Assembly (NCBI GenBank): GCA_018883755.1
Contig: JAHLFR010000035.1
Coordinates: forward strand, 1-64,000
Length of the DNA stretch: 64,000 nucleotides
Reading direction: 5' to 3'
Source of the DNA: Candidatus Methanocorpusculum faecipullorum
GTDB taxonomy: Archaea > Halobacteriota > Methanomicrobia > Methanomicrobiales > Methanocorpusculaceae
In this document: positions 7,858 through 10,725 of the stretch, piece after piece
How the letters are laid out: the number at the start of each line of letters is the position of its first letter
How positions within the stretch are numbered: the stretch's first letter is position 1
Translations under genes and position numbers: made by a program
The notes under the pieces: model-generated
Told to the model about the DNA's origin: nothing
Databases searched by the model: none
The model's input: only the letters and a program-made list of their open reading frames with translations

Positions 7858-8223
7858 TTAATTCAGGACAATCTGTGCTGGATTATTTACTACGATCTCT
7901 TTTTCTCCTGCGTATGTCTCTACGGTACCGCGCACCGTTACGTTGTCTCCCCGCAGAAGTTCTAGGTTTGCAGCACCCCCGGGTACAAATACGGACGTTC
8001 CGGATATGTTGAGAATAAGATGTCCACCGGTTCTGGTGAAGGTTATCTCTTCCACTGTACCCGTAAGCGTGACAAGTGATCCATCGGCACTGTCGTTTCT
8101 GTAAGGGACTGCTCCTCCGTCTGGAAAGAGGAATACAACCCCAAAATGGAAGATGGCAAGGGCTGTGATGACGCCTAAGAGAATAAGTGCGGCATGCCGC
8201 TCTGGCGGTGTCAGCATGATCAT
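7858..8223 (-). CDS. Membrane-anchored OB-fold protein
   Basis: A 121-residue protein. An N-terminal transmembrane anchor (about residues 11-32, LILLGVITALAIFHFGVVFLF) is followed by a compact beta-barrel. The barrel's strands (VTLTGTVEEITFT..., GDNVTVRGTVETYAGEKEIVV) match the OB-fold 'nucleic-acid-binding' pattern seen in small archaeal proteins. The N-terminus lies in the cytoplasm or the domain outside; orientation cannot be read with certainty. It is divergent to the HTH gene at 8311. Function is unknown; ligand binding is inferred from the fold. Confidence 0.75.
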   Translation of the reverse strand: MIMLTPPERHAALILLGVITALAIFHFGVVFLFPDGGAVPYRNDSADGSLVTLTGTVEEITFTRTGGHLILNISGTSVFVPGGAANLELLRGDNVTVRGTVETYAGEKEIVVNNPAQIVLN

Positions 8224-8280
8224 CCTGAATGTAAGGGTTCAGACCTACTTTTAGATTACCCTTTTTGGTACTGTAGATAT

Positions 8281-8310
8281 CTATATACGTTCATAAGTCA
8301 ATTGTTCGGT
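8281..8310 (+). promoter_or_regulatory. Promoter with CAATTG element before HTH gene 1
   Basis: A TATA-like CTATATAC (8281-8288) lies about 27 bases before the ATG at 8311, which suits a leaderless transcript. The palindromic hexamer CAATTG occupies 8299-8304, that is -12 to -7 relative to the ATG. This is exactly the position it has before the paralogous gene at 8762. The shared placement suggests an operator bound by these small HTH proteins themselves. Confidence 0.5.
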
Positions 8311-8550
8311 ATGACTAAAACAGAACTCCCCAAGTCATCGGTCAAAGTACTGTCAGTACTTGATCCGCATACCTCTTTAACACACAAGGAGATCTCACAG
8401 TTAACCGGGCTGTCTCCTCGAACTATTCGTTATGCACTGAAAAAACTGAAAGAACACGACATGCTTGTGGAGAAATTCAATTTCCGTGATGCGCGGCAGA
8501 TTTTGTACTCGCTGAAAGTGCCCTCAGCACCTATGCAAGCAGTGGTGTAA
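8311..8550 (+). CDS. Small winged-helix (MarR/ArsR-like) regulator, paralogue 1
   Basis: The protein is 79 residues and is essentially a single winged helix-turn-helix. The pattern 'LTHKEISQLTGLSPRTIRYALKKLKEHDMLVEKFNFRDARQILY' gives helices 2-3 and the wing. The start at 8311 is fixed by alignment with the paralogue at 8762-9001, which has the same length, and by the TATA spacing. No sensor domain is present, so it probably acts as a dimeric repressor or in autoregulation. Confidence 0.85.
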   Translation: MTKTELPKSSVKVLSVLDPHTSLTHKEISQLTGLSPRTIRYALKKLKEHDMLVEKFNFRDARQILYSLKVPSAPMQAVV

Positions 8551-8554
8551 GCTG

Positions 8555-8580
8555 AATTTCGGTAAAAATCACCCGAAATT
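8555..8580 (+). terminator. Stem-loop with T-rich tail after HTH gene 1
   Basis: AATTTCGG (8555-8562) pairs perfectly with CCGAAATT (8573-8580) around a 10-base loop. It is followed by TTCTTTTTC. It starts four bases after the stop codon, so transcription termination of the 8311 gene is the simplest reading. Confidence 0.5.
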
Positions 8581-8730
8581 TTCTTTTTCGGTTATGCAAT
8601 TTTAGCATTTAGTTTTCACATCTCTTTTTACAATCAGGATATTCTCTTTTTTTGCATTTGTTGTTCTGTTGGGGGCTGCTTCCTTCTTCTAAATTTATTT
8701 TGTTCGAACTTATACGAACTAAATTAGTAA

Positions 8731-8761
8731 TCTATAAATATTTTAAAAACAATTGTTTTGT
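8731..8761 (+). promoter_or_regulatory. Promoter with 14-bp palindrome before HTH gene 2
   Basis: A TATA box (TATAAATA, 8733-8740) lies about 25 bases before the ATG at 8762. Between them AAAACAATTGTTTT (8746-8759) is a perfect 14-base palindrome whose centre, CAATTG, is at -12 to -7, as in the promoter of paralogue 1. The site would overlap the transcription start, which fits a repressor operator. The remaining spacer from 8581 to 8730 is A/T-rich, with nothing recognised. Confidence 0.55.
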
Positions 8762-9001
8762 ATGCAAAGAACAGAAATGCCCCAATCGTGTATCACGATT
8801 CTCCATCTCCTGGAGAGCACCGGTTCGCAGACTCACAAGGATATCGTTGCGGGCACCGGACTTGCTCCGCGTACCGTTCGATATGCACTCAAACGTCTGA
8901 AGGAAAGCGGTCTTGTGATCGAGAAGTTCAACTTCCGCGATGCCCGTCAGGCAATCTACCAGCCGAAGATTGTTGCCCCGACAAATCAGGCATCTGCATA
9001 A
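8762..9001 (+). CDS. Small winged-helix (MarR/ArsR-like) regulator, paralogue 2
   Basis: This 79-residue paralogue of the protein at 8311-8550 has strongly conserved recognition and wing segments (LAPRTVRYALKRLKESGL, VIEKFNFRDARQ). The two differ mainly in the first 25 and last 12 residues, so they may read related sites. The ATG at 8762 is chosen because it aligns with the paralogue's start and has the right distance to the TATA box. No ligand-binding domain is visible. Confidence 0.87.
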   Translation: MQRTEMPQSCITILHLLESTGSQTHKDIVAGTGLAPRTVRYALKRLKESGLVIEKFNFRDARQAIYQPKIVAPTNQASA

Positions 9002-9048: not shown

Positions 9049-10725
9049 TTATCTTCTCCTCTTCAGTTGCCAGATTATCAGCAGTAATATGAGTATTACG
9101 GCAACCAGTATGTGACGCGGATCAATCTGCTTGGCATCTCCGATATCCAGTTTTTCGGGATCTCCATCCCAGTCATACTGAAATATTTCTGAAAAGTATT
9201 TTGCAGCCTCCTCACTTTCAATGATAATTCCTATCTCTCTGTTATTATTAGGGGAGTTATAATTCCAGTTGACCGAACTGATGAGTACGTACTCCATATC
9301 CACTATCAGCCCTTTGTTATGCAGTTTTGTTATATACTCATCAGGCAATTTTAGTCGTGCAGCTATTGAGACATCGTCTCTTTTTGCCATTCTGTTAATG
9401 CTTGCAACCAGTTCGTCATTATCTGTATCTCCATCTGTGTTATAATACATCCCATCCAGCATAATTCGGATAGGTATCCCACAATCTCCTGCTTCAAGTA
9501 CGTAATTCAGCCAAATGTTTTGTGCGCCGTCTGGATACTCTGAGATATAGGCCTGCTGGAGATCAATTTGTTCCTCTGCGGTTTGTACTAGTTCAGGAAT
9601 GAGGTAACTTGTATCCGGAGATACGATTGGTGTGATCTTGACATTATGTACTGTGTGCGGAGGAAACCGGACTGGAATTTCTTCATCCTTCCAACTGCTC
9701 GGGAGCGGTTCTGTTCCCGGTACGTAGGGGTGAATATCGTATCCTGCAAGATCCTCTGAAAAAATTTTCAGAAAATAGTCGGCAACCTCAGGGCTCTGTA
9801 CTGCTGCCCCCCATCCTCGGTTCCCCCGTGTTCCCGGAAGTGGTATGCCGGTTGGTTTGAAATTTTCCGAGAGAACGAGCGTGATCTCTTCATCAGCCAC
9901 CAGATATTTCGTATGCAGATACCGGTAACGTGCAGGAAGAGTATCTGTGCTTTCAATCGTGTAAACCGCAGCTCCCGCGTTTGCAAGGTAATTAAGTACT
10001 CCTTTTTCTTCGGTACTTACCCCACCCACAGGTCCGCCTTCGACAAGGAGTGTGACATTGACTCCGCGCGATACAGCATCTGCGACCGATCCCGCAAGTT
10101 CTGGGTGGGTGAATTCGTACATGGAGATGGAGATGCTGGTGCGCGCGTTCGAGATGACTGAATCAACTACGCCAAATGAGGAGTCCGGTGAGGCAAAAAG
10201 CGTGACGGATTCGGCAGTGAATGTTTTGGGGGATATGCGGCTCTGACCTATTTTATAGATCCGTTCATCCCACGTGTCACCAGTGTAAATGTGAATCCTC
10301 CCATTTCCGGAGGAAAAGTCCTCGGGCCATGAAAATGACTGTACTGGTGAATCGCGATACAACAGGGTTATGTCGTCTTTACTGTTTGCCATCTGAAACC
10401 GACCGGTGAAAAGTGCATCGGGTACTGATGGATGTGTACTGTATATTTCGTAATCTGGATAGGATCCGTGAATGTTGTAGTATGCAGTTCCTTCGCGTGC
10501 AACGATTATTTCTCCTGTCGCTGTTGTTCCTGGAGGGAATCGGACAGACCCTTCTCCATCGGTTATTACCCAGCCATCCAAGCTGCCAATTCCTGATAGT
10601 ACAAAGTACTCATCCCCATCTCCATTTGCATACCCATCGGGGCAGATCTCTGTTATGAGGAATCCTGCGGAGACAGGGGCCGCAGTTAGGCAGAGGAGGA
10701 GACCCAGGAGTATCCAGACTCTCAT
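9049..10725 (-). CDS. Secreted, membrane-anchored phospholipase-D-fold protein with lamin-tail domain
   Basis: 558 residues. A signal peptide (1-20, ending APVSA) leads into a lamin-tail-like beta domain (about 21-130, 'ITEICPDG...GDEYFVLSG'). Two PLD half-sites follow: H271/K273 in LHTKYLVAD and H469/K471 in LHNKGLIVD with SSVNWN after it. A transmembrane helix at about 538-553 and a basic tail (LKRRR) end the protein, so the enzyme is probably tethered outside the cell. PLD-fold enzymes cleave phosphodiesters in lipids or nucleic acids. The lamin-tail domain is often paired with extracellular nucleases, so an ectonuclease is the favoured but unproven activity. Confidence 0.88.
   Translation of the reverse strand: MRVWILLGLLLCLTAAPVSAGFLITEICPDGYANGDGDEYFVLSGIGSLDGWVITDGEGSVRFPPGTTATGEIIVAREGTAYYNIHGSYPDYEIYSTHPSVPDALFTGRFQMANSKDDITLLYRDSPVQSFSWPEDFSSGNGRIHIYTGDTWDERIYKIGQSRISPKTFTAESVTLFASPDSSFGVVDSVISNARTSISISMYEFTHPELAGSVADAVSRGVNVTLLVEGGPVGGVSTEEKGVLNYLANAGAAVYTIESTDTLPARYRYLHTKYLVADEEITLVLSENFKPTGIPLPGTRGNRGWGAAVQSPEVADYFLKIFSEDLAGYDIHPYVPGTEPLPSSWKDEEIPVRFPPHTVHNVKITPIVSPDTSYLIPELVQTAEEQIDLQQAYISEYPDGAQNIWLNYVLEAGDCGIPIRIMLDGMYYNTDGDTDNDELVASINRMAKRDDVSIAARLKLPDEYITKLHNKGLIVDMEYVLISSVNWNYNSPNNNREIGIIIESEEAAKYFSEIFQYDWDGDPEKLDIGDAKQIDPRHILVAVILILLLIIWQLKRRR

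Follow-up and report, generated by a model that had tools for sequence, protein, structure and literature searches.

A winged-helix protein family of the Methanomicrobiales with a palindromic candidate operator in its own promoter, and the possible replacement of this operator in Methanocorpusculum

The window, a stretch of 64,000 nucleotides from Candidatus Methanocorpusculum faecipullorum (contig JAHLFR010000035.1), contains two tandem genes, P1 and P2, that were described in an initial annotation as encoding helix-turn-helix paralogues of equal length with a single domain. This description holds in its coordinates, in the length of 79 amino acids for each protein and in the winged-helix fold (Table 1). 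The two proteins are 51% identical and score 26.6 and 31.2 bits against HTH_24 (PF13412), both above the gathering cut-off of 21.9, while the Pfam cut-off of HTH_5 is exceeded by P2 only. In its AF2 model P2 is a plain winged helix (mean pLDDT 88) with the order H-H-H-beta-beta across residues 8-68, and residues 72-79 are of low confidence. The recognition helices of P1 and P2, which the initial annotation had proposed to compare, differ little (SPRTIRYALKKLKE and APRTVRYALKRLKE), and across the family both the recognition helix APRTVRYALK and the wing FNFRDARQ are near-invariant. A tree of 80 columns, for which about two thirds of the loci from outside the genus (L030-L115) were removed for thinning, places P1 and P2 in separate clades (98/100 for P1 and 100/95 for P2), with P1 on a long branch. 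As a diverged tandem paralogue of a single clade, P1 lies between the divergent OB-fold gene and P2; its absences from other genomes of the genus are soft, because some of these genomes are incomplete. In one P2 orthologue (L009, G122:C70) residue 7 is followed by an in-frame stop; this gene may be broken, or the stop may reflect a sequencing error.

Table 1. Genes and candidate promoter elements at the P1/P2 locus, in window coordinates; positions with a sign are relative to the start codon.
Feature	Position	Strand	Remarks
Small protein, divergent, hydrophobic stretch at N-terminus (OB-fold gene)	7858-8223	-	Weak OB-fold match (PF01336), below cut-off
TATA-like box of P1, TATATA	8282-8287	+	-29 to -24
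CAATTG upstream of P1	8299-8304		-12 to -7; CGATTG in the remaining 6/7 P1 orthologues
Degenerate box over the P1 start codon, TTGTTCG-GTATGACT-AAAACAG	8302-8323		11/14 in 7/7 P1 orthologues
P1, 79-aa winged-helix paralogue	8311-8550	+	ATG to end of stop codon; found in 7/25 Methanocorpusculum genomes
Main candidate operator of P2, TTGTTCG-AACTTATA-CGAACTA	8700-8721		-62 to -41; 13/14 to TTGTTCG-N8-CGAACAA
TATA-like box of P2, TATAAAT	8733-8739	+	-29 to -23
Perfect 14-mer upstream of P2, AAAACAATTGTTTT	8746-8759		Clade-limited; contains CAATTG at 8750-8755 (-12 to -7)
Degenerate box over the P2 start codon, TTGTTTT-GTATGCAA-AGAACAG	8753-8774		10/14 in window
P2, 79-aa winged-helix protein	8762-9001	+	ATG to end of stop codon; member occurring genus-wide and in most of the order
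PLD-like (PLDc_2) protein, convergent, downstream	9049-10725	-	Opposite-strand cluster at about that offset in 66/86 loci

The OB-fold gene is the conserved divergent neighbour of the family across the order. Outside the genus, 71 of the 79 loci in which it was found have 60-80 bp between its start and that of the family gene, and it was not found in 10 of 89. Downstream, the opposite-strand cluster seen in 66 of the 86 loci of the neighbour survey probably represents the same PLD-like protein as in the window. Where P1 is present, the distance from the OB-fold gene to P1 is 93-94 bp (7/7), and this interval contains an inverted repeat, CTAC-TT-GTAG, which is imperfect in the window (at about 8244-8256). 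The repeat recurs in the P1 orthologue promoters L006-L011, with both arms changed together in L010 and L011 (ATAC-TT-GTAT).

Both genes carry CAATTG at -12 to -7, and before P2 the hexamer forms part of a perfect 14-base palindrome. These observations of the initial annotation, which had read them as the layout of auto- or cross-repression, are exact base by base. The TATA-like boxes of both genes begin at -29, so that transcription likely starts at or beside the ATG and the transcripts of P1 and P2 are probably leaderless. CAATTG is not enriched in the window (23 occurrences against 29.1 expected) and occurs within 40 bases upstream of just one of the 68 called ORFs, at -31 and thus elsewhere than at -12 to -7 (the caller used ATG starts and a minimum of 80 aa, took a longer ORF for P1 and called none for P2). 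The hexamer is therefore no general promoter feature, and the equal frequency before unrelated genes that the initial annotation had named as an objection to its own proposal is not seen within the window. The 12-base core of the palindrome, AAACAATTGTTT, occurs a single time in the genome (1.25 Mb assembly, 80% complete), and, with the hexamer unenriched in the window, CAATTG is rejected as a genome-wide operator. Within the genus, AAACAATTGTTT is found in 7 of 25 genomes, in six of which it is the copy in the P2 promoter. P2 orthologues have CAATTG at -12 to -7 in 9 of 25 cases and other bases in 16, and among the seven P1 orthologues the window genome alone has it, so that CAATTG is not the conserved element.

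A conserved element is found when the family is followed through the order. P2 has a match in at least 185 of 199 genomes drawn from the Methanomicrobiales; a class-level search drew genomes of the same order only and added little. Outside the genus the promoters carry the site TGTTAAC-N3-GTTAACA. Once loci fetched by the site pattern, paralogue loci, loci of the genus and duplicate promoters had been dropped, 89 distinct promoters remained; the core of the site, GTTAACNNNGTTAAC, is exact in 77 of them, deviates at one base in nine, is masked in one and absent in two. Its left edge lies at -23/-24 in 74 of the 77 exact promoters and, given the spacing between the divergent starts, the site therefore falls inside a shared divergent promoter. 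The exact 17-mer TGTTAACNNNGTTAACA is present in 40 of 120 genomes, as compared with 1 of 120 for a reversed-pattern control, and in at least 87 of 120 when one mismatch is allowed; all 17 Methanocorpusculum genomes covered by the exact search lack it. Of the 40 genomes carrying the exact 17-mer, 34 have a copy directly upstream of the family gene (established for 24 of 30 loci, and for 10 of 10 remaining genomes by comparing the coordinates of family-gene and site matches), and in the other six the site lies solely away from it. Among the matches listed, neither this palindrome nor the one found in Methanocorpusculum shows a clear excess past the family's own promoter that would point to a wider regulon. 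Within the open-access library searched, nothing relevant was listed on the site strings or on this protein family.

In Methanocorpusculum the P2 promoters carry a different palindrome, TTGTTCG-N8-CGAACAA. At -62/-63 it matches at 10 or more of 14 positions in 23 of 25 promoters (the exceptions being L027 and L029), scored against a consensus derived from these very promoters, and 0.11% of random 22-mers from the same loci reach this score. In the window this candidate operator sits just 5' of the TATA region of P2. A second copy, about 42 bp upstream of the first (-103 to -107), reaches at least 10/14 in 16 of 25 promoters. Within 130 bases upstream, the top-scoring box outdoes all 100 shuffles in 24 of the 25 P2 promoters (exception L029), as against none of the seven P1 promoters, and the strong -62 palindrome is missing from P1 in 7/7. 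The expectation that P2 is more tightly controlled than P1 can thus be kept, but the reason lies in this additional palindrome and not in the 14-mer. The interval from the OB-fold gene to P2 in genomes without P1 is 149-192 bp with two boxes in 12 loci; L028 and L029 have longer intervals (312 and 314 bp), and L014 has the longest (683 bp). All 16 genomes that lack CAATTG have the -104 box, none of the nine that bear it do, and this swap probably represents one evolutionary change rather than many independent ones. Across the 25 genomes, TTGTTCG-N8-CGAACAA with up to two mismatches gives 109 sites among the matches listed, against 83 for the control. The boxes of the P2 promoters themselves would account for roughly this surplus, and no wider regulon is therefore visible.

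The same box suggests another reading of CAATTG. The TTGTT within CAATTGTT is best taken as the left half-site of a third, degenerate copy that spans the start codon (-9 to +13). This copy matches at 10-12 of 14 positions in the nine P2 genes that bear CAATTG and at 5-10 of 14 in the 16 that do not. The start-codon box is weak, and its right half (AAAACAG in P1, AGAACAG in P2) is coding sequence that is also constrained as protein. Such a box would explain why the distance from CAATTG to the ATG is identical in P1 and P2. CAATTG would then consist of the left half of the start-codon box and a few clade-specific bases, a view that, as part of the overall explanation preferred here, we consider evenly balanced between right and wrong. 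The observation made in the initial annotation is correct, but its motif was mis-parsed.

We propose, with about an even chance of being right, that this winged-helix family represses its own promoter and the OB-fold gene via palindromic operators, and that the operator has been replaced in Methanocorpusculum. A protein of the P1/P2 family would bind to palindromic operators in its own promoter as a dimer, perhaps assembled on the DNA, and would repress both its own gene and the divergent OB-fold gene by blocking assembly at the two promoters. In most of the order the operator would be TGTTAAC-N3-GTTAACA at about -24 to -8, within a promoter region of about 70 bp that also serves the OB-fold gene, so that a single bound dimer would occupy the promoters of both genes. 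For Methanocorpusculum the GTTAAC operator would have been lost, and the P2 promoter carries TTGTTCG-N8-CGAACAA in its stead, at -62, often also at -104, and in degenerate form over the start codon, while P1 carries the start-codon box alone. Judged from the promoters, autoregulation is plausible: the order-wide palindrome backs the self-regulatory part of the original proposal, although neither CAATTG nor the 14-mer is the conserved element. The proposed bistable-like pair lacks support: P1 was found in only 7 of 25 genomes, the genes are in tandem and do not oppose each other, and the near-identical recognition helices predict shared, not opposed, targets. A point against autorepression is that the candidate -62 box lies upstream of the TATA region, a position that would suit an activator too. 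Furthermore, the recognition helix is nearly unchanged, which makes a shift of the half-site from GTTAAC to TTGTTCG awkward, with TGTT common to both. That a regulator of little besides itself and its divergent neighbour swapped its operator in one genus while its helix stayed near-invariant, and would read the shared TGTT half with a new dimer spacing, is a tentative idea that we consider possible but rather doubtful.

The main rival to self-regulation assigns the TTGTTCG-N8-CGAACAA boxes to MsvR, the methanogen-specific V4R regulator, which acts in redox control; P2 would then be an MsvR target and the GTTAAC self-regulation would have been lost, a reading that we regard as unlikely but a serious contender. 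The published MsvR motif is TTCGN7-9CGAA, and TTCGTAN4TACGAA in Methanothermobacter (PMC3729527), and several P2 promoters carry exactly the latter; the Methanocorpusculum box thus equals the published MsvR box, and another protein may therefore bind to it. MsvR is moreover encoded in the genus, with 20 of 25 genomes above the family cut-off, and it is the best NCBIfam match of the P2 winged helix, far under the cut-off. P1 and P2 themselves are rejected as MsvR proteins, since their scores, 24.0 and 28.2 bits, lie far below the cut-off of 220 (NF053755) and come from N-terminal profile positions only; P2 resembles the winged-helix N-terminus of MsvR, but the 79-aa proteins lack its C-terminal V4R cysteine domain. 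The box is reported in all MsvR promoters (PMC3729527), whereas TTCGN7-9CGAA occurs within 250 bp upstream of just one of the 24 MsvR genes examined in the genus, five of the 24 have an everted repeat in its place, and elsewhere in the genomes the boxes show no clear excess among the matches listed. In one Methanocorpusculum clade (L239-L242, L262) an everted repeat, CGAACATTCTTATCTGTTCG, lies at about -82 of the MsvR genes.

Two further explanations concern the bases close to the start codon. These bases could be a core-promoter or initiator element of a leaderless gene, inherited by duplication and independent of any regulator; the run ending in TGT before the ATG is among the best-conserved stretches of the P2 promoters in the genus, it occupies the expected place of an initiator, and P1 and P2 are homologous, but this account does not predict TTGTTCG, the half-site of the -62 box, which P1 keeps in 7/7, and we consider it improbable. 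That CAATTG, within the 14-mer before P2, is itself the operator for mutual or self repression by both proteins would fit the way the exact hexamer recurs at one and the same position in both genes, as well as the unique 12-mer, but is very improbable given its conservation in only 1/7 P1 and 9/25 P2 orthologues, the CGATTG of the other P1 orthologues, and a left arm AAAACAA that varies where TTGTT persists in the clade.

For the proposed mode of action the closest worked example, by analogy, is Stf76/ORF80 of Sulfolobus plasmids. Stf76, an archaeal winged helix of 76 aa, binds to TTAAN7TTAA sites in its own promoter, where two such sites are reported 60 bp apart (PMC4027180). Like these proteins of 76-80 residues, P1 and P2 each comprise one winged-helix domain, about 80 residues long, and have no separate dimerisation domain or other addition; the promoters of the P2 family's genes likewise contain palindromic or repeated sites. 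The order-wide GTTAAC site contains TTAA-N5-TTAA and so differs in spacing from the Stf76 site as published (PMC4027180). The P2 model matches the Stf76 structure 2mlg in Foldseek (TM 0.69/0.71), but Stf76 is absent from the eight sequences found at E <= 0.01 in a profile search of PDB sequences, and the likeness is one of fold only. Stf76 is also plasmid-borne, whereas the P1/P2 family is chromosomal with conserved synteny. The best PDB fold matches of the P2 model in Foldseek are the MarR/ArsR-type winged helices BpsR, ZitR and AdcR. Proteins of this type have 130-160 residues, including added dimerisation helices that P1 and P2 do not have.

To our knowledge, few transcription factors of the Methanomicrobiales have been characterised, and the present family occurs in most genomes of the order together with a clear, near-unique cis site. 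The useful outcome of this sequence comparison is the order-wide candidate operator and its apparent replacement in Methanocorpusculum. It would offer a natural experiment in operator replacement, with many sequenced promoters on either side and a DNA-reading helix that has barely altered, and a clean test case for self-only regulators that drift as against those taken over by another regulator, here MsvR.

Several further occurrences of the sites and of the family were observed. A similar replacement by TTCG-N8-CGAA is seen in Methanomicrobium, in a single distinct promoter sequence (L115) that recurs in L155 and L156. In two loci of family f2 (L154, L159) GTTAAC-like sequence runs into the coding region and gives VN.VN-like residues at the N-terminus. 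Another group of paralogues, from other Methanomicrobiales (L209, L210, L213, L215-L218, L220 and partly L207), has a conserved CTATGAG-GATCGTTTTTGT about 40-60 bases upstream, the ATG of which is apparently out of frame with the gene, so that the element may be a binding site, a frameshift or a short ORF ahead of the gene. Distant relatives at 3-6 copies per genome appear in several other families (f13, f21 and f23) among the matches listed in a phylum search. Away from the family gene, L132 (G087:C4) has five copies of GTTAAC-N3-GTTAAC in about 150 bp, which could represent an array of operators or a repeat within coding sequence. Finally, an exact TGTTAAC-N3-GTTAACA (L189:973-989) lies in an intergenic region before a gene for an Mrp/NBP35-like ATPase, which was read in L189 alone; G052, G004 and G116 of the same genus have this site too, again exact, which makes the gene a possible second target.
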